NCBI GenBank assembly: GCA_903923135.1
Contig: CAIXWN010000174.1
Location: 1 to 62,015 of the forward strand
Length of the DNA: 62,015 bases
Origin: an uncultured Caulobacteraceae bacterium
GTDB taxonomy: Bacteria; Pseudomonadota; Alphaproteobacteria; Caulobacterales; Caulobacteraceae
Direction: 5' to 3'
How positions within the stretch are numbered: position 1 is the first letter of the stretch; each line of letters starts with the position of its first letter. The translations under genes and the position numbers were made by a program. Shown in pieces: positions 2,650 through 47,555 of this stretch. The notes beneath the pieces were generated by a model. That model was given only the letters and a program-made list of their open reading frames with translations. It was not told where the DNA came from and did not search any database.

Positions 2650-5600
2650 CTACTCCGCGGCGGCCGGCGTCGGCTCACGCGGCGTGACCAGCCGTCCGAG
2701 CCTCGGCATGATCCACTGCTCGAAGTCGTCGATGAACTCATAGACGACCGGCACCAGCAGCAGCGACAGAACCGTCGAGGTCATCAGCCCGCCAATGACC
2801 GCCACGGCCATGGGCTGGCGGAACTCCGAACCCTTGCCCAGCGTCAGGGCGGTGGGCAGCATGCCCGCCGCCATGGCCATGGTGGTCATCACGATCGGCC
2901 TGGCCCGCTCTCGGCACGCCTCCAGAAGAGAGGCGCGTTGCGACGCGCCGGCCCGCTCGCGCTCGATGGCGTATTCCACCAGCAGGATAGAGTTCTTCGC
3001 CGCCAGACCCATCAGCATCAGGAAGCCGATCAGCGAGGGAATCGACAGGGACAGATCGGAGACCAGCAGGGCCAGCAGGGCGCCGCCGATAGCCGTCGGC
3101 AGGGCCGACAAGATGACGAACGGTTTGAAAAAGCTGCCAAAAAGCAGGACCATGACCGCGTAGACCAGCCCTACGGCCGAAAGGATCGCGATGGCGAACC
3201 CGCCGAAAAGCTGGGCGTAGGCCTTCTCCTGGCCCTGGTTGGCAATGCCCACGCCCGGCGGCAGCTTCTGCATGATCGACAGCTTGTGGACCCGGGCGAT
3301 GGCGTCGCCGACCTGGGTGTCACCGGTGGTGTCGGCCATCATGGTGATGTTGCGCTTGCGATCGAAGCGGTTGATCTGGCCGGGACCGGCCTGGAAATAG
3401 ACGTCGGCGACGCTGTCGAGCGTGGTGACCCCGCCGCTGGCCGTGGGCAGGCGCATGTTGCGGATCACCGAGAGGTCCGTTCGGTCAGGCGCCGCGAGCC
3501 GCACGCGGATGGGAATCCGCCGCTCCCCGTCGTCCATCTTGGAGACGTTGGCATCGATGTCGCCGAGCGTGGCGATCCGTGCGGCCTGGGAGATCGTCGT
3601 CACCGCGACGCCGAGGCGGGCCGCCTCGTCCGCCCGCGGCTTGACCACAAGTTCGGGGCTGCTCGGCGGCGTGGCCGGCCTTGGGTCGGCCAGCCCCTCG
3701 ACGGTTCGCATCTGCCTCTGGAGTTCCAGGGCCGTGTTCTCCAACCCCACGCCGGTCTCGCTGGTCAGGATGACCTGCACGCCGCCGGCCCCGAAACCGG
3801 AGATGTCGAAGGAGAGGCGCGCGTCGGGGATCGCCCTCAGCAGGGGCCGCAGGCGATCGCGAATCTGCGTCGCCTTGGCCTTGTGGTCCGGCTTCATGAC
3901 CACGACCACGGCGCCGTTGGTCACCCCCGAGGTGTTGACGAATCCGCCAGGTCCGCCTGAAATTCCACCGCCGCCCACCTGGGCGAACACCGTGGCGGTT
4001 TCCGGCTGCTGTTTCAGCAGGGCGTCAACCCGGTCGATCGTCTTGCGCATATCGGCCAGCGTCGAGCCGGGCGGCCCCTCGATGTTGATGTAGTAGTAGT
4101 TCGGGTTGGCCTCCGGCTGGACGCCCTTCTTGAGCGGCACCGCCAGGGAGACCGAAAGGACGAAAATTACGCCGCCGATGATCACCGACAGGATCCGGTG
4201 ATCCAGGGCCCAGGTCAGGGATGTCGTATAGAATCGAGGAAGCGGCGGCCGTTCGCGGGCCACCTTTGGCGTCAGGAAATAGGCCGCCATGAGGGGGGTG
4301 AGCAGACGGGCCACGACCAGCGAGAACAGCACCGCCACCGACACCGTCAGGCCGAACTCCCGGAAGAACTGACCGGGTATGCCAGCCATGAAGCCGACCG
4401 GCAGGAACACCGCGACGATGGCGCCAGTGGTGGCCACCACCGCCAGGCCGATCTGGTCGGCGCCCTCGATGGCGGCCTCGAATGGACGAATACCGGTGTA
4501 GACACGCTTTTCGATGTTCTCGATCTCGACGATGGCGTCATCCACCAGGATGCCGATCACCAGAGTCAGACCCAGCAGGGTCACCGTGTTCAGGCTGAAG
4601 CCGTTGAGGTTCATGAACGCGAATGTCGGGATCAACGACACGGGCATCGCGATCGCGGTGATCGCCGTGGCGCGCCAGTCACGCAGGAACAGCCAGACCA
4701 CCAGGGCGGCCAGGGCCATGCCCTCGAGGAGTGTGTGCAGGGTGGCAGAGAAGGCGTCCCGGGTCTGATCGACCTGCGAGACGATCTTGTGGATCTTCAC
4801 CTCGGGATGCTCGGTCTCGAGGCGACGGATCGCGGCGTCGACGTTGTCCTCGGTGGACACCTCGCTGGCGAGCTTCGTCTTGCTGACCTCGAAACCCACC
4901 ACTGGCCGGTCGTCAAGCAGGGCGAAACCACGCTCTTCGGCCGACCCGTCGCCCACGTCGGCGACGTCGGAGAGACGCACGAAGCGCCCGCCTCCGGTGG
5001 GGATGGTGAGCTTGCGGATCTGGTCGACCGACAGAGCGGCGCCAAGGACGCGCATGGTCTGTTCACGCCCGCCTATGGCGACCCGCCCGCCGGGAGCATC
5101 GATATTGGCGGCGGACAGAGCCTCGTTGACCTGAGCCGCCGTCAGCCCCTGGGCGGCAAGTCGGTCAGGGTTGACCAGAACGTTGATTTCTCGATCCGCC
5201 CCGCCCAGGCGATTGATCTTGGAGACGCCGCTTTCTGCCTGAAGGGTTCGGGAGATGGTGTTGTCGATGAACCACGACAGTTCCGTGGTCGACATCGACG
5301 GCGCGGTCACCGCGTAGGTGATGATCGGCTGGTCGTCGAAATCGAGATGCTGAACGATGGGCGGGTCGATTTCGCGCGGCAGATCATTGCGGATCTGGTC
5401 GACCTTCGACCGGACGTCGTCGGTGGCCTTCTGAAGGTTCACGCCGAGTTCGAAGCGGATGAAGGTCGATGAGACGCCCTGGGAGATGGAGGTGCTGATG
5501 CCCTCGACGTTGGCCAGGCCCGAAAGCGCGTTCTCCACCGGACGGGAGACCTGGTTTTCCATCTCGGACGGCGCCGCGCCGTTGCGGGTGACCTGCACAA

Positions 5601-5754
5601 GCACGGCGGGGAATTCGATGTTCGGATAGTTCTTGATCGGCAGGGCGAAATAGGAAATCAGCCCCGCCAGGACCGCCACGATGAAGAGTACGGCGATCGG
5701 AATCGGATTGCGGATCGCCCATTCGGAGATCCGGAAGTGTCTGGAGCCGTTCAT
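2650..5754 (-). CDS. RND efflux pump inner-membrane permease (HAE1 family)
   Basis: Proton-driven drug/proton antiporter forming the inner-membrane trimer of a tripartite pump. The 1034 residues show the AcrB-type plan: a first membrane segment near residues 12-32 (NPIPIAVLFIVAVLAGLISY), a large periplasmic loop, a helix bundle carrying the proton-relay pair in GILVDDAIVEIENIEKRV, a second hydrophobic start near residue 530, a second loop and the final bundle. It is the last gene of the operon, and its ATG overlaps the adaptor stop by four bases. Substrate cannot be read from sequence. RND heavy-metal (CzcA) types usually carry different relay motifs, so the hydrophobe/amphiphile class is preferred. 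Confidence 0.93.
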   Translation of the reverse strand: MNGSRHFRISEWAIRNPIPIAVLFIVAVLAGLISYFALPIKNYPNIEFPAVLVQVTRNGAAPSEMENQVSRPVENALSGLANVEGISTSISQGVSSTFIRFELGVNLQKATDDVRSKVDQIRNDLPREIDPPIVQHLDFDDQPIITYAVTAPSMSTTELSWFIDNTISRTLQAESGVSKINRLGGADREINVLVNPDRLAAQGLTAAQVNEALSAANIDAPGGRVAIGGREQTMRVLGAALSVDQIRKLTIPTGGGRFVRLSDVADVGDGSAEERGFALLDDRPVVGFEVSKTKLASEVSTEDNVDAAIRRLETEHPEVKIHKIVSQVDQTRDAFSATLHTLLEGMALAALVVWLFLRDWRATAITAIAMPVSLIPTFAFMNLNGFSLNTVTLLGLTLVIGILVDDAIVEIENIEKRVYTGIRPFEAAIEGADQIGLAVVATTGAIVAVFLPVGFMAGIPGQFFREFGLTVSVAVLFSLVVARLLTPLMAAYFLTPKVARERPPLPRFYTTSLTWALDHRILSVIIGGVIFVLSVSLAVPLKKGVQPEANPNYYYINIEGPPGSTLADMRKTIDRVDALLKQQPETATVFAQVGGGGISGGPGGFVNTSGVTNGAVVVVMKPDHKAKATQIRDRLRPLLRAIPDARLSFDISGFGAGGVQVILTSETGVGLENTALELQRQMRTVEGLADPRPATPPSSPELVVKPRADEAARLGVAVTTISQAARIATLGDIDANVSKMDDGERRIPIRVRLAAPDRTDLSVIRNMRLPTASGGVTTLDSVADVYFQAGPGQINRFDRKRNITMMADTTGDTQVGDAIARVHKLSIMQKLPPGVGIANQGQEKAYAQLFGGFAIAILSAVGLVYAVMVLLFGSFFKPFVILSALPTAIGGALLALLVSDLSLSIPSLIGFLMLMGLAAKNSILLVEYAIERERAGASQRASLLEACRERARPIVMTTMAMAAGMLPTALTLGKGSEFRQPMAVAVIGGLMTSTVLSLLLVPVVYEFIDDFEQWIMPRLGRLVTPREPTPAAAE

Positions 5755-6845
5755 GAGGGATTGGTCGGGCGGATCACGTCGCCGGGCACCAGCATGGCCC
5801 CGGCCCGCTGGACAACACGCGTCCCGGCGGGTGGTCCGGTGATCAGTTCGACATAGCCGCCGCCGCGCTGGCCGGTGGTGACCGGGGCGCGGGTGACCCT
5901 GTCGTCGGACCCGACCACCATCACCGCCGCCCCGTCGGCGTCATAGCGCACGGCCGTCTCGGGCACCGCCGGCGCCGACCGGCTGGCGCCGGTGAAGGAG
6001 GCGCTGGCGAATCCGCCGGCCCGGATGTCAGCGCGGACCGGCAGGCTTATCCGGACATGGCCCAGCTTGGTGTTCGCATCCACGCGGGGGCTGATCAGGC
6101 GGACCCGCCCCTCGACCCTGGCGCCGTCGGCGAGGGTCACTTGTACCGGCGCCCCGACCGTCATCTTGCCCAGGGCGTCCTCACCGACATCGGCCGACAG
6201 CTCGATCTGGCTGTCCTTGGCGATGCGGAACCACGGACTGGCGCCGGCGGCCTGGTCCCCTGGCCGGACGGTGCGTTCGATGACCAGGCCATTATAGGGC
6301 GCCCGCAGGACCATGAGGCTCTCGCGGGTCTTCACGTCGTTCACCGCCGCCGCCTGGGCGGTGGCCTGCGCGCGGGCGCTGAGGGCGGCGAACCGCCGCG
6401 CGTCGATCTGTTCCTGCGAGAGAATGCCTTTGGTGTCGAGGCCCCTGACACGGGCCGCCTCGGTCTCGGCCCGTTCAGCCACGATGTTCTGCTGATTGGC
6501 CAGGGCGACCTGCTGGGCCAGTTGGGCGCGCAGCAGGGTGTCGTCCAGCCTGGCCAGCGGTTGCCCGGCCCTGACCGTCGCGCCTTCGTCAACCAGAACC
6601 TCGGCGACGCGGTAGCCACTGATCTGTGGAAAGACCGCGGTGTCCTCACGCGGGATGAGCGCCCCCGAGGCAACCAGACCGCCCTGGATTTCCCGAGCGT
6701 CGATGGTGACCACGCTGACCGTGCGCGCCTGGCTCTTCACTGGCTCGGCGATCTTCTTTTCGCACCCTGCGAGAACCGCTGAGGCGGCAAGAGCCAACGC
6801 GATGGCGATCGGGACTCTGAACTTCGTCATCGAGGAGTGTCTCAT
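5751..6845 (-). CDS. RND efflux periplasmic adaptor subunit
   Basis: Membrane fusion protein linking the permease to the outer-membrane channel. It opens with a lipoprotein signal ending in the lipobox LAGC, so the mature protein is probably lipid-anchored to the inner membrane. A lipoyl/barrel-sandwich half-motif (DEGATVRAGQPLARLD, about residues 90-105), a coiled-coil hairpin and a second lipoyl half (LRAPYNGLVIERTVRPGD) follow in the usual order, then beta-barrel and membrane-proximal domains. The first ATG overlaps the upstream stop (ATGA); an internal ATG five codons later is an alternative. It is the middle gene of the three-gene operon. Confidence 0.92.
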   Translation of the reverse strand: MRHSSMTKFRVPIAIALALAASAVLAGCEKKIAEPVKSQARTVSVVTIDAREIQGGLVASGALIPREDTAVFPQISGYRVAEVLVDEGATVRAGQPLARLDDTLLRAQLAQQVALANQQNIVAERAETEAARVRGLDTKGILSQEQIDARRFAALSARAQATAQAAAVNDVKTRESLMVLRAPYNGLVIERTVRPGDQAAGASPWFRIAKDSQIELSADVGEDALGKMTVGAPVQVTLADGARVEGRVRLISPRVDANTKLGHVRISLPVRADIRAGGFASASFTGASRSAPAVPETAVRYDADGAAVMVVGSDDRVTRAPVTTGQRGGGYVELITGPPAGTRVVQRAGAMLVPGDVIRPTNPS

Positions 6846-8311
6846 CGGGCTTTCGCCAGGTTTGCAAAGGACCAGCCACCGCCGAGCGCCTTGTAGGTGG
6901 CCACCGCCCGTCGCAACGCCTGCACGCGCTCGGCCGTCAACGCGGCCCGCGTGCCACGCCAGGCCTGTTCCGCCGACAGCGCCGTCGTGAGATCGTCGAG
7001 CCCCATGGCGTAGCGGGTCTTGGCGGCGTCCGACGCACGGTGCGCGCGCACCTCCCCGTCGGCCAGCAGCACCGCGGCGCGTTTACCGGCCGCGAGACTG
7101 ACCAGCGCGTTCTCTGCCTCGCCATAGGCGACCTGCACGGTCTTCTCGTATGCGACGGCTGCCTGTTGGGTGCGGGCGTCCTCGGCCTTGGCGTCGAACA
7201 ATAACTGCGGAATGTTGAAGACGGGCACGGTGACGCCGCCGCCCCAGCTCCACAGACCCAGACTGGTGGTCTGCTGGTACGGAGACAGCGTGTTCGTGGA
7301 GGGATTGTAGGCGACGCTCGGCTGCACGCTGCGCGACAGGCCCAGCTGCGGAAGGATGGTGAAGGTGGGGTAGATCGCCAGATGGCGTAACCGGGCGGTC
7401 CCGGCTTCCGACCTGAGCCGCGCCTCGGCCTCACGAACGTCAGGACGACGCGCGAGCAGTTCGCCAGGCAGGGCCGCCGGCGGCGGCGGCGCCTCAGCGG
7501 CCTCAGCGGCCAGGTTGAGGCTGTCGGCCGGAGCGCCGGCGCGACCGATGAGGATCAGCAGTTGCCGTTCGGCCGCATGCCGCTGCGACTGCAGGTCTTC
7601 GAGTTGCGCGCGGGCCTGGGCAAGATCCCCGGCCACACGGTCGGCGTCCGAGGTCGCGGCCAAGCCGAGGTCGGCCTTTTCCTGGGCGATGCGCTGCAGT
7701 TCCGTCTCGATGCGGACGGTCTCGCGGGCGTCGGCGATCTGGATGGTCAGGCCTGTGGCGAGGAAATAGTTGTCGGCGACTCCGGCCGCGAGACTGGCGC
7801 GGGCGCCTTCCACATTGAACCGGGTCGCGGCGAGGTTGGCCTTGGCGACCTTTCGGGCCTCGCTGAGCCTCCCGAACAGATCGATCTCCCAGGACACCTT
7901 CAGATTCGCGGTCTCGCTTTCGATATCGCCGCCGATGGGGAACAGCGAGCCGCCGCTGCCGCCGATGTTCGATTCGTGCTGCCGGCTGGCGTTGCCCGCG
8001 ATGGAACCCGTGGGCAGGGTCTGGGCGACGAGACTGCTACGGGTGGCGCGCGCCTCCAGCACGCGGGCCGCCGCGGTGCGCGCATCCGGACCGGTCCTGA
8101 AAGCTTCGTCCTCGAGCGCATTGAGCCGAGGATCGTTGAACAGCAGCCACCAGCGATCGAGTTCGGCGACCGGCAACGGGGTCCCGCCGGACGGCGTGTC
8201 ATAGGCCAGAGGAAGGCGGGCGTCGGGGATCACCGTCTTCGCGTCCGCGGCCCAGGCGAACGCCGTCGCGAGCACGATCATCGGAACCATCACTGGCGCG
8301 AGGTGTCTCAT
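6842..8311 (-). CDS. RND efflux outer-membrane channel protein (TolC/NodT-like)
   Basis: Outer-membrane factor completing the tripartite pump. The protein has two outer-membrane-efflux repeats with the helical periplasmic barrel pattern (for example the ARAQLEDLQSQRHAAERQLL segment). I chose the ATG at 8309-8311 because GGAAC lies a proper distance upstream; a start three codons earlier is possible. The N-terminus is a Sec signal (MRHLAPVMVPMIVLATAFAWA). Unlike most NodT lipoproteins, no Cys follows the signal, so it is probably not lipidated. It is the first gene of the operon, overlapping the adaptor start by four bases. Confidence 0.9.
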   Translation of the reverse strand: MRHLAPVMVPMIVLATAFAWAADAKTVIPDARLPLAYDTPSGGTPLPVAELDRWWLLFNDPRLNALEDEAFRTGPDARTAAARVLEARATRSSLVAQTLPTGSIAGNASRQHESNIGGSGGSLFPIGGDIESETANLKVSWEIDLFGRLSEARKVAKANLAATRFNVEGARASLAAGVADNYFLATGLTIQIADARETVRIETELQRIAQEKADLGLAATSDADRVAGDLAQARAQLEDLQSQRHAAERQLLILIGRAGAPADSLNLAAEAAEAPPPPAALPGELLARRPDVREAEARLRSEAGTARLRHLAIYPTFTILPQLGLSRSVQPSVAYNPSTNTLSPYQQTTSLGLWSWGGGVTVPVFNIPQLLFDAKAEDARTQQAAVAYEKTVQVAYGEAENALVSLAAGKRAAVLLADGEVRAHRASDAAKTRYAMGLDDLTTALSAEQAWRGTRAALTAERVQALRRAVATYKALGGGWSFANLAKAR

Positions 8312-8318
8312 GCGTTCC

Positions 8319-8334
8319 ATAACAGTGCGGTTAT
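8319..8334. promoter_or_regulatory. Inverted repeat, candidate repressor operator of the efflux operon
   Basis: ATAAC-N6-GTTAT is a perfect inverted repeat with five-base arms. It lies in the leader of the efflux operon, just upstream of the preferred start of the outer-membrane gene. Size and spacing resemble TetR/MarR operators of RND pumps. A TetR gene lies about 1 kb away at 9344. Binding is inferred, not shown, and a 5+5 repeat can occur by chance. Confidence 0.35.
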
Positions 8335-38189: not shown

Positions 38190-38951
38190 ATGTCCACAGC
38201 GAACGGCTATGAGACCGAACTTCGCAGTCTGCAGATCGGGCTGGTGCGCCACCAGATGTGGGCGATCCGGACCGGCGCAAGGGCGCTGGTGATTCTGGAG
38301 GGCCGCGATGGCGCCGGCAAGGACGGGACCATCTCGCGGATCATTGAACATCTCGCTCCGCGCAACACCCGGGTCGTCTCCCTGCCGAAGCCATCAGATC
38401 GAGAGCGGTCGGAGTGGTTCTTCCAGCGTTATGTCCGCCGCCTGCCGGCGGCAGGCGAAATCGTTATTTTCAATCGGTCCTGGTACAATCGCGGGGGCGT
38501 TGAGCCGGTTATGGGTTTCTGTACGCCGCGCGAACATGACGATTTCCTCCGGGATGCGCCGACCTTCGAGCGAATGCTGGAGGATTCGGGAATTCGGGTG
38601 GTCAAGGTCTGGCTGGATATCAGCAAGTCGGAACAGGCCCGCCGGCTGAAGGAAAGGCGTGACGACCCCCTGAAGCAGTTGAAGGTCAGCGACCTGGATC
38701 TGGTCGCTCAGACCAAATGGAAGGCGTATTCCAAGGCCCGCGACGAGATGCTGACCCGCACCCACACGGTGACGTCGCCCTGGATCTGCGTCCGCGCCGA
38801 CGACAAGAAGACGGCGCGGCTCAATGTGATCCGCCACCTGCTGCACGTCCTGGCGACCAATGAGGTCCGGGCGGAAGTGGCGCCGCCGGATCCTGACATT
38901 CTCTTCCCCTTCACGGACTCGGCTGTAAGCGACGGCCGGCTTTCGCCCTAG
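38190..38951 (+). CDS. ppk2: Polyphosphate kinase 2 family protein
   Basis: PPK2 enzymes transfer phosphate between polyphosphate and nucleotides. The 253 residues show a Walker A-like loop EGRDGAGKDGT (residues 37-47), the Walker B/lid region IVIFNRSWYNRGGVEPVMGF, and the lid helix RLKERRDDPLKQLKVSDLDL. It is a single-domain (class I/II size) protein. The start ATG at 38190 gives the usual N-terminus; Shine-Dalgarno is weak. Whether it prefers GDP, ADP or nucleoside monophosphates cannot be read here. Confidence 0.92.
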   Translation: MSTANGYETELRSLQIGLVRHQMWAIRTGARALVILEGRDGAGKDGTISRIIEHLAPRNTRVVSLPKPSDRERSEWFFQRYVRRLPAAGEIVIFNRSWYNRGGVEPVMGFCTPREHDDFLRDAPTFERMLEDSGIRVVKVWLDISKSEQARRLKERRDDPLKQLKVSDLDLVAQTKWKAYSKARDEMLTRTHTVTSPWICVRADDKKTARLNVIRHLLHVLATNEVRAEVAPPDPDILFPFTDSAVSDGRLSP

Positions 38952-39166
38952 ACACAGCGCCCCACCCCGGCGGCAGCGTCATCGGTGGCGCGCCGGTGGG
39001 AATCGGCTCGCGACAGACTGGGCCCGGGCCATCCAGGCTGCGCCAGCACCGCATGGCGCCCGCGGCGGGCGCACCGGCTTGACGTCGTCCGCCAATTGAC
39101 GTTCGGATGCTGGTCAAGGCGCCCGCGGTGCGGACCCGCGCCAGTGGGTAGCTTGGGGCCAGGCGT

Positions 39167-41167
39167 TTGAACAGCACTGACAGACCGCAGGCTAAGGTGG
39201 CCCTTGTCCAGATGCCATTCGCGGTCACCGCATGGCCATCGCTCGGGCTGGGGCTGCTGAAGGCGGGGCTTGCCCAGGCTGGCGTCGCTGCCGAGGTGCT
39301 CTACCTGAACGCGATGTTTGCCGATCAGGTCGGCGACAGCGCCTATGAGCCCCTTTCCATAGGGGCGCCGCAAAATACCGATCTGCTGGGCGAGTGGGTG
39401 TTCGCCGACGCGCTCTGGGGGTCGTCGCCGGAACGGGACGACCGATACTTTGCCGAGATCCTCAAGGGTGGGCAGGCCGCACATCGAAAACACCTGGTCG
39501 ACCCTGATGTCTCCGAGGTCTGGCGCAACGCGATCACCTGTCGGGCTCAGGTGGAACGCTATCTGGACGATTGCGTCGAGAAGTATGACTGGGCGGCATT
39601 CCGGATCGTCGGGTTCACCTCGGTTTTCCAACAGCATCTTGCCTCGCTCGCCCTTGCGAAGCGGTTGAAGGCGCGGTTTCCGAATCTGACGATTGTCTTC
39701 GGCGGCGCCAATTGCGAGGGCCCGATGGGCCTGGCGACCCTGCGAAATTTTCCATTCATCGACGCCGTCTGCGTCGGTGAGGGAGATGTGGCCTTTCCTC
39801 TTTTCGTCCAGAGAACATTGAGTGGGACCGCCCACGAACCCAGCAATATTGTCACCCGCGAGCAGCTGCAGGATATCGACGGCGCAGATGGCGGCGCGCG
39901 TCCGACGCCTGATCTGGTCGATCTCAACGCCCTGCCGTTTCCCGATTTTGACGATTTTTTTGAACAGTGCGGACACAGGCCCGAAAGCGAGTCCATCCCG
40001 GTCCGGATCGTCTTCGAAACCTCCCGCGGCTGCTGGTGGGGTCAGAAGAACCACTGCACGTTCTGCGGCCTGAACGGCACAACAATGGCGTTCCGCTACA
40101 AGGCGCCGCTACGCGCCATTGAGGAGATACAGCACCTTACGCGGCGGTACGGTCGCTTCACCCAGCAACTGTCGGCCTCCGACAACATCATTCCCTACCA
40201 GTATTTCGCGGAATTTTTGCCCGAATTAATAAAATTAGATATGAAATTATCTATTTTTTATGAGACCAAGTCTAACCTCCGTAAGGACCAGCTGACTATT
40301 TATAGAGATGCCGGTCTCATGGAAATACAGCCCGGTATAGAAAGCCTGGACACAAATGTATTGCGCCTTATGAAGAAAGGTGTTTCGGGTATACAAAACA
40401 TTCAGCTTTTGAAGTGGTGCAAAGAACTCGGAATATCTCCCCTATGGAACTATTTGTATGGATTTCCCGGGGAATTATCATCTTCCTATGACGATATAGC
40501 TAAAATTTTACCAGTATTAAGTCATCTCGACCCGCCAACCGGCATGGGTCGCCTTCGCTTCGACCGATTTAGTCCCTATCTCGATCGCCCGGGTGAATTT
40601 GGCGTGACGGGCCTCAAGCCTTATCCGGCTTACGAATACATCTATCCCTATATTGATGCAGATCAAAGGCAATTCCTAGCCTACTATTTTACGGGCGATT
40701 TTGAATCTAGTGATACGGTAGACCGTTATACGGAGACGCTTCGTGCTGGAATAAGGAAATGGCAAGCGATATCACCGGACAGCATGCTTTCGCACGTAGA
40801 AGACGAGAATTCAACAACAGTATTTGATGGGCGAAATGGTGATGATTTCCAATTTATTACATTGAGCGGGCTATACCATAAGGTATTTCTCCAATCCGAC
40901 GGAATAATTTCTGCGTCGCAATTGGATCTGACCAACGAGGAGGGCGAAAGGCTGCCGAGCGTGTTGACAGAGCTTGAAAAACGGGGGCTAATATTTCTTG
41001 AGGGGGACCGGATTTTGAGGCTATCCTTGCCTCTTGTTTCGGACTATGAGCCCCCGCCAAAAGCGATGGCGCGGCTGCGGTCCTTGTTGGTGGAAAAAGA
41101 AGAAGCTGAAACAGCCGAGCGTTTGTTGACCATAGACAGTAAGAACGTCGTCGCTTTGGAAATTTGA
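39167..41167 (+). CDS. B12-binding radical SAM protein, RiPP maturation C-methyltransferase type
   Basis: A 666-residue enzyme with an N-terminal cobalamin-binding Rossmann domain (about 10-215; GGANCEGPMG, VGEGDVAF), a radical SAM core with the cluster motif C289-x7-C297-x2-C300 in RGCWWGQKNHCTFCGLNG, and a C-terminal winged-helix-like region (about 545-625) that may bind a leader peptide. CWWG with a seven-residue spacer is characteristic of the RiPP maturation radical SAM C-methyltransferase family (TIGR03975-like). The start is TTG; the conserved VALVQMPF strand starts at residue 11, so the internal ATG is too late. Codons from about 40215 to 40920 are AT-rich (TTA, ATA, AAA), unlike the 5' half and neighbours. 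The putative precursor gene follows by 18 bases. Confidence 0.9.
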   Translation: MNSTDRPQAKVALVQMPFAVTAWPSLGLGLLKAGLAQAGVAAEVLYLNAMFADQVGDSAYEPLSIGAPQNTDLLGEWVFADALWGSSPERDDRYFAEILKGGQAAHRKHLVDPDVSEVWRNAITCRAQVERYLDDCVEKYDWAAFRIVGFTSVFQQHLASLALAKRLKARFPNLTIVFGGANCEGPMGLATLRNFPFIDAVCVGEGDVAFPLFVQRTLSGTAHEPSNIVTREQLQDIDGADGGARPTPDLVDLNALPFPDFDDFFEQCGHRPESESIPVRIVFETSRGCWWGQKNHCTFCGLNGTTMAFRYKAPLRAIEEIQHLTRRYGRFTQQLSASDNIIPYQYFAEFLPELIKLDMKLSIFYETKSNLRKDQLTIYRDAGLMEIQPGIESLDTNVLRLMKKGVSGIQNIQLLKWCKELGISPLWNYLYGFPGELSSSYDDIAKILPVLSHLDPPTGMGRLRFDRFSPYLDRPGEFGVTGLKPYPAYEYIYPYIDADQRQFLAYYFTGDFESSDTVDRYTETLRAGIRKWQAISPDSMLSHVEDENSTTVFDGRNGDDFQFITLSGLYHKVFLQSDGIISASQLDLTNEEGERLPSVLTELEKRGLIFLEGDRILRLSLPLVSDYEPPPKAMARLRSLLVEKEEAETAERLLTIDSKNVVALEI

Positions 41168-41185
41168 AGGCAACAGGAGAACACC

Positions 41186-41350
41186 ATGCCTACCAAGAAA
41201 ATCGTGATCGACAGGGCCCGGATCGCCGTCGACGAAGACGGTAACCTGCGGATTTCCGCCCCTGAGGTGCTCAAGGCGCTGGCCGAGAAGGGCCTGGGAA
41301 CCCGTGGCCACAAGCCGAAGCCGAGCCCCGGGATCATTCCGGGCGTTTGA
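41186..41350 (+). CDS. Candidate RiPP precursor peptide (54 residues)
   Basis: ATG at 41186 has AGGAGA five bases upstream and lies 18 bases after the radical SAM stop. Residues 1-37 look like a leader: a basic start, a beta-like IVIDRARIAVDEDGN and a helix SAPEVLKALAEKGL. The tail, residues 38-54, is Gly/Pro-rich (GHKPKPSPGIIPGV), with Pro at 44, 46, 48 and 52 and Ile/Val residues as possible methylation targets. There is no Cys, so thioether and lanthionine chemistry is excluded. Codon use is GC-rich like the chromosome, unlike the 3' half of its upstream partner. Precursor assignment is inferred from adjacency, size and composition. Confidence 0.72.
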   Translation: MPTKKIVIDRARIAVDEDGNLRISAPEVLKALAEKGLGTRGHKPKPSPGIIPGV

Positions 41351-41356
41351 AACTCG

Positions 41357-41371
41357 CCCCCCTGCGGGGGG
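41357..41371 (+). terminator. G/C hairpin after the candidate precursor gene
   Basis: CCCCCC at 41357-41362 pairs with GGGGGG at 41366-41371 around TGC, six bases after the precursor stop. Only two T residues follow, so it may act as a stabilising or attenuating 3' stem rather than a full terminator. It would limit read-through from the radical SAM gene into the globin gene. Confidence 0.4.
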
Positions 41372-41568
41372 TTGAACCTGCGACTATGCACCAGGATCTG
41401 CCCGTTTCCGGTTGCCCCGGCGACGGGCGTCTTGCGTTATACGGCAGTCACGATCCAGCACCGTGGTGAAGCAGGGCGGAGCTGCTGCACGATTGGGGGA
41501 AATATGGACGCGGCCATGCTGACCTCACAGCACAGGGGGAAGGCGTCACGTCCGGCGGGAGGGGGCAG

Positions 41569-41991
41569 ATGGACGGCGAAATGATAGAGCGGACGCTCGA
41601 GATCGCGGCCGAACGCATCCCTGACCTGACTCCGCGGGTCTATCAGCGGCTGTTCGCCGCCCATCCCGACATGGAGGCGCTGTTTGTCCGTGACACCAAC
41701 GGCTCGGTAAGAGGAGAGATGCTCGCGCGAGTGTTCGAGATGATCCTCGATTTCATCGACCGTCGCGCCTACGCAGCCCAGATGATTCAATGCGAGGTGG
41801 TGACCCATGAAGGTTATGGCGTACCGCCGGAGGTGTTCGGGATCTTCTTCCAGACTGTGGCCGACACCCTCCGCGATGTCGTGGGCGCCGACTGGACTCC
41901 GGCGGCGGACAGCGCCTGGAAGGCCATGTTGACCGAAATGGGCTGGTTCGCCACGCACCCGGCGCAACTGGCCCCAGCCTCCGTTGACTGA
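41569..41991 (+). CDS. Single-domain globin
   Basis: A 140-residue protein with globin helix signatures: Y25 at the B10-like position (RVYQRLF), the proximal His H80 in VTHEGYGVPPEVF, and FFQTVADTLRDVVGADWTP over the G-H region with W109 and a following AW pair. It lacks reductase domains. The ATG follows GGGAGGGGGCAG, a strong site. It could bind oxygen, NO or serve as a sensor. The globin lies 218 bases after the candidate RiPP precursor, and its last bases overlap the TTG start of the next gene. Confidence 0.85.
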   Translation: MDGEMIERTLEIAAERIPDLTPRVYQRLFAAHPDMEALFVRDTNGSVRGEMLARVFEMILDFIDRRAYAAQMIQCEVVTHEGYGVPPEVFGIFFQTVADTLRDVVGADWTPAADSAWKAMLTEMGWFATHPAQLAPASVD

Positions 41992-46661: not shown

Positions 46662-47555
46662 ATGGCGAGACTCCAGGCTGGCGACCTCTTCCTTGAATAC
46701 GACAGCCACGGCGACGCGGGCGCCGAGGCGATCCTGCTGATCATGGGCCTTGGCGCCCAGATGACCCGCTGGTCACCAGAGTTCGTCTCCAAGCTTGTGG
46801 CCCGCGGATTCCGTGTCATCCGGTTCGACAATCGCGACGTCGGCCTTTCGGACAAGCTTGACGACGCCGGTCCGCCGGACATGGCCGCAATCCTGACCGC
46901 CCTCAGCCAGGGCCGGTCGCCCCCTGTCGCCTACGACCTCGGCGACATGGCCGCCGACGCCGTGGCGCTGCTGGACGCCCTCCAAATCGACAGCGCCCAT
47001 ATCGTCGGCGCCTCCATGGGCGGGATGATCGCCCAGCTCGTCGCCGCCGACTACCCGCGACGCACGCGGTCGCTCACCTCGATAATGTCCACGACCGGCC
47101 ACCCCGATCTGCCGCGTGCGACCCCGGAAGCCATGACGCGCCTCAACACGCCCGCGCCCGACCCCCGGGCGGATCTCGAAGCCTATGTCGCGCATTCCAT
47201 CGCCAGCGCCCGCGTCATGGGCTCGCCAGCCTATCCCGTCCCAGCGGCTGAATTGCGTGAGCAGGCGATCAGCACAGTCGGCCGCAGCTACTACCCTGTC
47301 GGCTTCGCGCGGCAATACGCCGCCATTCTGGCCTCGCCCGATCGGCGGGCCAAACTCGCCGGAGTCACCGCTCCCGCCTTGGTCATTCACGGTCAGGCCG
47401 ACCCACTTGTGCCCGTGGAAGGGGGACGTGACACGGCGGCCTCGATTCCCGGCGCCGAACTGCTGGAAATCCCCGGCATGGGCCACGACCTGCCTGGTCC
47501 CCTGCACGATCAGGTGGTCGATGCGATCGTCGCCATAGCGGCCCGCGCGGGCTGA
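46662..47555 (+). CDS. Alpha/beta hydrolase
   Basis: A 297-residue alpha/beta hydrolase. The nucleophile elbow is GASMGGM near residue 118, the oxyanion region includes LLIMGLGAQMTRW, and the acid and His of the triad lie in VIHGQADPLVPVEGG and GMGHDLPG. The family includes esterases and haloperoxidase-like enzymes, and the substrate is not evident. It follows the histidine kinase by 14 bases and may be co-transcribed, then converges with the aldo/keto reductase. Confidence 0.88.
   Translation: MARLQAGDLFLEYDSHGDAGAEAILLIMGLGAQMTRWSPEFVSKLVARGFRVIRFDNRDVGLSDKLDDAGPPDMAAILTALSQGRSPPVAYDLGDMAADAVALLDALQIDSAHIVGASMGGMIAQLVAADYPRRTRSLTSIMSTTGHPDLPRATPEAMTRLNTPAPDPRADLEAYVAHSIASARVMGSPAYPVPAAELREQAISTVGRSYYPVGFARQYAAILASPDRRAKLAGVTAPALVIHGQADPLVPVEGGRDTAASIPGAELLEIPGMGHDLPGPLHDQVVDAIVAIAARAG

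Follow-up and report, generated by a model that had tools for sequence, protein, structure and literature searches.

In the 62,015-nt stretch of Caulobacteraceae DNA considered here (the window), a radical SAM enzyme gene is followed directly by a short reading frame. Does this frame encode the substrate of the enzyme, and if so, what would be done to it? The answer we favor, and hold to be probable, is that the two genes form a RiPP cassette in which the 54-aa peptide is the substrate, its head recognized by the enzyme and its hydrophobic tail methylated at Cβ.

A radical SAM enzyme of the TIGR03975 family

The first gene and its cluster motif are placed as follows.
39167–41167, forward strand: B12-dependent radical SAM gene (TIGR03975), 666 aa, TTG start
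40031–40066, forward strand: CX7CX2C [4Fe-4S]-binding motif, C289-WWGQKNH-C297-TF-C300, located by alignment

The encoded protein matches TIGR03975 (623.7 bits against a cut-off of 281.85, E = 3.3e-187) over profile positions 1–605 of 606; this family, also named rSAM_ocin_1, comprises the RiPP maturation radical SAM C-methyltransferases. Pfam assigns the protein a radical SAM domain (PF04055, 50.1 bits); its B12-binding match (PF02310, 26.4 bits) falls under the cut-off of 32.1. A reading of the letters alone (the sequence-only reading) had already named a B12-dependent radical SAM enzyme, an assignment that the full-length family match bears out. The host further encodes a BtuB-like receptor (286.7 bits, under the family cut-off).

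The cysteine triad is invariant in an 18-row alignment, and every residue invariant across the 18 relatives is present in the window enzyme. The seven-residue cysteine spacer, singled out at first reading, is indeed present (C289-x7-C297-x2-C300), but it is not distinctive: CX7CX2C occurs in 36 of 37 enzyme rows, the exception having an eight-residue spacer, and we rejected it as a special trait of this enzyme.

An AlphaFold2 model of the enzyme (mean pLDDT 83.6) was compared with solved structures using Foldseek, and the top matches were the cobalamin-radical SAM enzymes OxsB, TokK, CysS and TsrM, which among them carry out several different reactions. The pair might thus be a RiPP system with chemistry other than Cβ-methylation, for example radical cyclization or methylation at another position. 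Passages of PMC11117315 likewise credit B12-dependent radical SAM enzymes as a group with C–S and C–P bond formation, ring contraction and C–C cyclization. A match to TIGR03975 over the full length, together with Cx7Cx2C, favors instead the type represented by PoyC and the bottromycin enzymes, and we consider other chemistry unlikely.

A 54-codon gene without a named family

The elements downstream of the enzyme gene are listed below.
41175–41180, forward strand: ribosome-binding site AGGAGA, five bases 5' of the ATG, by direct reading
41186–41350, forward strand: precursor peptide gene, 54 aa, assigned from held-out profiles, adjacency to a six-enzyme clade, and codons
41186–41299, forward strand: leader part, about residues 1–38, with a motif of approximately DxxGxhxIxxPxhhxxL (h, hydrophobic), from the alignment of six precursors; the leader/core border is putative
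41318–41347, forward strand: C-terminal tail K-P-S-P-G-I-I-P-G-V, presumed core, its end shared with the peptides of loci L034 and L035
41357–41371, forward strand: GC hairpin CCCCCC-TGC-GGGGGG 3' of the precursor gene, possible transcript end, by direct reading

The two genes are separated by 18 nt (41168–41185). Both genes lie where the sequence-only reading placed them, and the gap, the AGGAGA site, the length of the peptide, the lack of cysteine and the Gly/Pro-rich tail are as it described. The small ORF starts with ATG and its product ends in KPSPGIIPGV. The GC3 of the small gene is 0.80. Promoter and terminator scans of the locus gave results at chance level; the scan for terminators requires a T run, and the GC hairpin is missing from its sites.

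When the peptide was compared with curated families, including NHLP, Nif11, pheganomycin and CefA, there were no NCBIfam matches at E ≤ 1 and no Pfam matches at E ≤ 10, in keeping with the earlier statement that it bears no recognizable bacteriocin leader of the NHLP or Nif11 type. The five related precursors described below gave Pfam and NCBIfam matches to unrelated families only, all under cut-off, and we recognized no published description of the precursor family in the open-licence literature. Because no scanned model matches the window peptide, its precursor type has no name that we found, while the enzyme family is known and the architecture is minimal. Judged by sequence, the precursor type, nameless in Pfam and NCBIfam, appears to be new.

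Related short genes follow related enzymes

Related short ORFs directly 3' of the enzyme gene were found at six distinct loci spanning two phyla. Besides the window, these are L034 and L035 (genomes G002 and G015, two other species of the window's genus in the Caulobacteraceae), L036 (a Rhizobiales MAG), L028 (genome G280, from the same class as the window) and L056, a plasmid of Niallia (Bacillota) on which the small ORF is annotated as 'hypothetical protein' (WP_338473323.1). Relative to the last base of the enzyme gene, the small ORF begins 3 nt earlier in L036 and 33 nt later in L028. The loci were chosen before the trees were built, from ORFs right 3' of the enzyme and a motif scan. The scan caught five of the six precursors; that of L035 failed it and was admitted for its tail and its match to the window peptide. 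Six further ORFs caught by the scan were set aside: five located 5' of enzyme genes, in L031, L039 (two), L049 and L056, and one at 41372–41584 of the window.

In a tree of 45 enzymes, the six with a precursor form one clade (support 96/91; 98% of 200 bootstrap trees). The precursor trait requires a single change on this tree, and as few changes were seen in 0 of 500 label shuffles. A 37-row tree recovers the same clade (support 91/44; 93% of bootstrap trees). The 37-row tree omitted L001, L006, L030, L051 and L052, which repeat the window, L034 and L035, as well as the fragment L032; the 45-enzyme tree omitted the same rows plus L066 (a repeat of L036) and the repeats L072, L075 and L077. The fragment L033 is not among the tree rows.

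The small ORF could be a frame that arose by chance in GC-rich sequence, and the window has many spurious ORFs of similar length. As the relatives' own matches to the six-precursor profile arise by construction, the independent tests are those with held-out profiles. Searched with a profile built from the other five sequences, the window peptide ranked first of 1674–1679 ORFs of 40–80 aa (E = 7e-6). The peptides of L036 (3.7e-4), L028 (0.0032) and L035 (0.24) also ranked first, while those of L056 and L034 came second (2.2) and fifth (4.7), so that two of the six give a weak signal. Against the whole 4.64-Mb genome of the window, the held-out profile again placed the window ORF first (E = 0.0021; next match 0.82). 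A single-sequence search with the window peptide in 99 genomes (its own and 98 relatives) recovered the peptide of L035, listed as L006, with E = 8.6e-4; in G002, which holds the L034 peptide, nothing reached E ≤ 1. Run on 1598 small ORFs near 44 other enzymes, the six-precursor profile picked up no further precursor at E < 0.5 (next best 0.61), and tblastn of the precursor against plasmids gave chance matches only (17 records, none with 80% coverage).

The codons of the three Caulobacteraceae precursors were also compared. Between the window and L034, 19 of 52 aligned residues are identical, 13 of them with different codons, and the nucleotide differences at codon positions 1, 2 and 3 number 26, 20 and 35. 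The corresponding values are 15 of 54 identical residues, 8 with different codons and differences of 27, 24 and 35 for the window and L035, and 12 of 53, 6 with different codons and differences of 30, 20 and 34 for L034 and L035. Identical residues written in different codons point to conservation of the protein rather than of the DNA. Together with the held-out profiles and the fixed place after six enzymes, this strongly disfavors a chance frame, which we regard as very improbable. We hold with high confidence that the small ORF truly codes for a protein paired with the enzyme. Looking for it beside related radical SAM genes, the check proposed with the sequence-only reading, thus upheld the pairing, with six loci in two phyla and one enzyme clade.

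A head of about 38 residues can be aligned in all six precursors; its G19 is invariant and belongs to a turn resembling D-x-x-G, after which the sequence alternates in hydrophobicity. The three Caulobacteraceae peptides share the ending P-x-P-x-x-x-P-G-V (PSPGIIPGV in the window, PTPRILPGV in L034, PAPLMVPGV in L035). The other tails read VGVVVGKSF (L036), PIVKVMM (L028) and LLAAIWQDII (L056), and by eye all six have Val or Ile within the last seven residues. As the tails outside the Caulobacteraceae differ, the modified residue cannot be read from conservation.

A candidate recognition element in the enzyme

If the head is a leader, the enzyme would need a means of recognizing it, and one region is a candidate.
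40787–41020, forward strand: C-terminal domain, about residues 541–618, candidate fused RiPP recognition element (RRE), from AlphaFold2 and weak profile matches

AlphaFold2 builds this domain from strands, two helices and a hairpin (block pLDDT 83–97); a PqqD-like RRE would have three helices and three strands. A PqqD profile weakly matches the region in 2 of 16 enzyme relatives (best E = 0.02) and not in the window enzyme; other weak winged-helix matches are to a DtxR-type profile (E = 0.015) and to 2g9w (E = 0.081). In passages of their article, the RRE-Finder authors describe RREs as resembling DNA-binding domains such as 2G9W, and proteusin RREs as C-terminal fusions (PMC7470986). A tethered model of the C-terminal domain and the precursor gave nothing at E ≤ 0.001 in Foldseek; the peptide in it is of low confidence (block pLDDT 31–53), a β-hairpin and helix being weakly suggested for its N-terminal part. 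The earlier suggestion of a C-terminal recognition element is in this way weakly supported by winged-helix and PqqD profile matches, in some relatives, but not by structure comparison. We consider a fused recognition element plausible as a candidate assignment.

Beyond this domain, a C-terminal extension (41021–41164 in the window) is common to the four closest enzymes, those of the window, L034, L035 and L036. It ends in approximately N/R-V-V/I-x-L-E-I/F in three of the four, with a looser form in L037, and AlphaFold2 confidence is low across it. In 3 of 16 enzymes the C-terminal region has a weak match to Pfam DUF5825 (E = 0.004 at best), and a DUF5825 gene (L070, 5129–5794) comes after the TIGR03975 gene in Streptomyces clavuligerus; the two may be related, with DUF5825 as the free-standing form.

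Distribution and genomic setting

Enzyme relatives were collected from genome contigs (17 loci), whole genomes and plasmids. TIGR03975 occurs in 8 of 385 genomes of the class, 8 of 398 of the phylum and 6 of 397 of the order of G455, counts that include the window's genome wherever it is listed; a second class draw found it in 5 of 308 genomes, all five already known. The enzyme is present in 3 of 16 genomes of the window's genus. We had considered the pair as typical of Caulobacteraceae and rejected this, TIGR03975 being found in 6 of 390 genomes of the family and the precursor in three of those six. The enzyme had no match in phage records, and none of 119 pattern matches in viral contigs was a relative.

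Among plasmids, 72 records matched the enzyme and ten stretches were opened. In the nine other opened records, an annotated RiPP precursor lies near the TIGR03975 gene in five; three of the records have no annotation at all, and one shows no precursor. An unannotated Paracoccus denitrificans plasmid stretch has, directly upstream of its TIGR03975 gene, a Cys-rich ORF with a Gly-rich tail (L057, 2556–2948) that resembles the annotated CefA peptide of L087. A 191-aa ORF lies directly upstream of the enzyme in L029, and L041 (Defluviicoccus) has tandem TIGR03975-type matches at 2922–4928 and 5001–6893.

In the window, the pair sits between ppk2 and a globin gene, within the run hisS-like, hisZ-like, hisG, ppk2, the pair, globin, alkZ, response regulator, CHASE2 kinase and alpha/beta hydrolase. 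L034 and L035 carry the pair at the same site, inverted relative to the neighbors. In G009 (L074) the site is empty, with 118 nt between ppk2 and globin, and in G014 (L073) it is occupied by an aldo/keto reductase gene. The ppk2–globin interval is an intergenic hot spot that holds the cassette either way round, nothing, or other genes. The variable site extends over 38951–41569 in the window, 4373–7964 in L034 and 4375–9357 in L035. No pair of inverted repeats flanking the cassette, a possible cause of the flip, was found.

The GC3 of the enzyme gene is 0.61, against 0.75–0.81 in six neighboring genes. Along the gene, GC falls from 0.58–0.67 in the first part to 0.38–0.55 at 40201–41100 of the window; the dip at codons 301–480 is also seen in L034 (0.34–0.53) and L035 (0.45–0.49) and is much weaker in L036 (0.50–0.57). 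This dip suggests a foreign origin with uneven adjustment, and the patchy occurrence, variable site, inversion and enzyme GC3 together suggest a gained, movable unit. The rarity within the genus and the low enzyme GC3 would also fit a cassette that is silent, or was gained recently, and yields no product in the window strain. Against this stand two intact frames, the full set of residues invariant in 18 relatives, a good ribosome-binding site and the precursor GC3, and we give silence only a slight probability.

Genes for processing or export were looked for around the pair. Pfam scanning of the window genes at 30.6–49.9 kb revealed no ABC exporter, and neither a peptidase gene nor an exporter gene is common to the scanned flanks of the precursor loci. 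In L035, a locus with no ppk2 match, a gene for an M13 peptidase lies between the cassette and hisG and begins 109 nt downstream of the precursor, and a family-5 solute-binding-protein gene follows the L036 precursor; neither has a counterpart at the window. The alpha/beta hydrolase of the window (46662–47555) has a further match, to the S33 'serine aminopeptidase' model, and an RND-type efflux set lies at 2650–8320, about 31 kb from the pair.

This lack of a shared cleavage or export gene would be expected if the small protein were a partner of the enzyme, such as a scaffold, chaperone or regulator, and the methylated peptide or protein were encoded elsewhere. The better conservation of the N-terminal part across phyla and the β-hairpin and helix that the model weakly suggests for it could be read in the same way. 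Yet a conserved head and a variable hydrophobic tail are the usual precursor layout, annotated RiPP precursors accompany TIGR03975 genes in the five plasmid records noted above, and the window's genome holds no second precursor copy (remaining matches E = 0.045 or worse). On balance, we think a partner role quite unlikely, and return to the peptide as substrate.

Proposed function

In the mechanism we propose, the enzyme would act on the 54-aa peptide whose gene lies directly 3' of its own. The N-terminal part of the peptide, about 38 residues, would be recognized by the enzyme, probably through the winged-helix-like C-terminal domain acting as a fused recognition element, and the Pro/Gly-rich tail (...PSPGIIPGV) would enter the active site. 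There, the 5'-deoxyadenosyl radical would abstract a hydrogen from an unactivated Cβ, to which methylcobalamin would donate a methyl group. The likeliest targets would be Val, Ile or Pro in the tail, and the single best guess is conversion of the C-terminal Val to tert-leucine.

These steps differ in strength. That the peptide is the substrate can be put forward with good confidence. Cβ-methylation of the product, argued by analogy, merits moderate confidence, and confidence in the identity of the modified residue is low. The C-methylated RiPP product of the sequence-only reading accordingly finds support in the enzyme family and the co-conserved small ORF, while methylation itself is carried over from the family. 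As the peptide gene recurs beside related enzymes, the pair is probably a minimal methylated-peptide system.

A wider reading, which we offer tentatively as a possibility, is that a new RiPP precursor class and one enzyme clade make up a complete, one-enzyme, movable two-gene system in Pseudomonadota and Bacillota. Methyl groups would be placed at the very C-terminus of the tail, as in tert-leucine formed from the final Val. With no dedicated export or cleavage, the product would perhaps be cell-internal or processed by housekeeping enzymes, and not a classical antibiotic.

TIGR03975-type enzymes methylate carbons that are chemically hard to reach, and the well-known cases belong to clusters with several tailoring enzymes. 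One peptide and one enzyme offer a very simple set for studying how B12-radical SAM enzymes recognize peptides and select the sites that they methylate, with six diverse leader/tail pairs as natural variants. The precursor profile, in turn, lets annotation find precursors now missed or labelled hypothetical.

Comparison with known systems

The window enzyme resembles the TIGR03975 family from end to end and has the same CX7CX2C motif. Annotated precursors of the family elsewhere are of the NHLP (Os1348-family), Nif11, pheganomycin and CefA types, whereas the window precursor matches none of these. Pheganomycin-type loci are alike in having a TIGR03975 gene beside a short precursor gene, as in Streptomyces globosus. 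They differ in that the precursor precedes the enzyme and is accompanied by peptide ligase and Dpg genes, which the window locus does not have.

ApyD of the aminopyruvatide pathway is described in part of PMC11117315 as an RRE-containing B12-dependent radical SAM enzyme that methylates a Tyr Cβ near the precursor C-terminus. The window enzyme is of the same B12-dependent radical SAM type, and it may likewise contain an RRE and methylate Cβ close to the C-terminus of its precursor. ApyD, however, has a separate model, NF050148, against which the window enzyme scores 44 bits (cut-off 750), and its partners are a P450, an MNIO and a methyltransferase.

Polytheonamide and bottromycin clusters have several tailoring enzymes, and precursors with either an NHLP leader or a C-terminal follower. 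Compared with these multi-enzyme clusters, the window locus consists of one enzyme and one short peptide. The C-methyltransferases themselves are closer, judged by review descriptions, and the window enzyme has the Cx7Cx2C motif of Class B (PoyC-like) Cβ-methyltransferases: PoyC, PoyB and the bottromycin enzymes are also B12-dependent radical SAM enzymes with Cx7Cx2C that act on peptides bearing Val, Ile or Pro. The review PMC11285071 reports that PoyC methylates Ile3 and Val5, 10 and 21, and the bottromycin enzymes Phe, two Val and Pro; action at Cβ has been proposed for both groups, together with the unconventional Cx7Cx2C motif, in part of PMC5682303. Since the window enzyme shares this motif with PoyC and the bottromycin enzymes, we infer that its likeliest activity is Cβ-methylation within the hydrophobic tail of the peptide.
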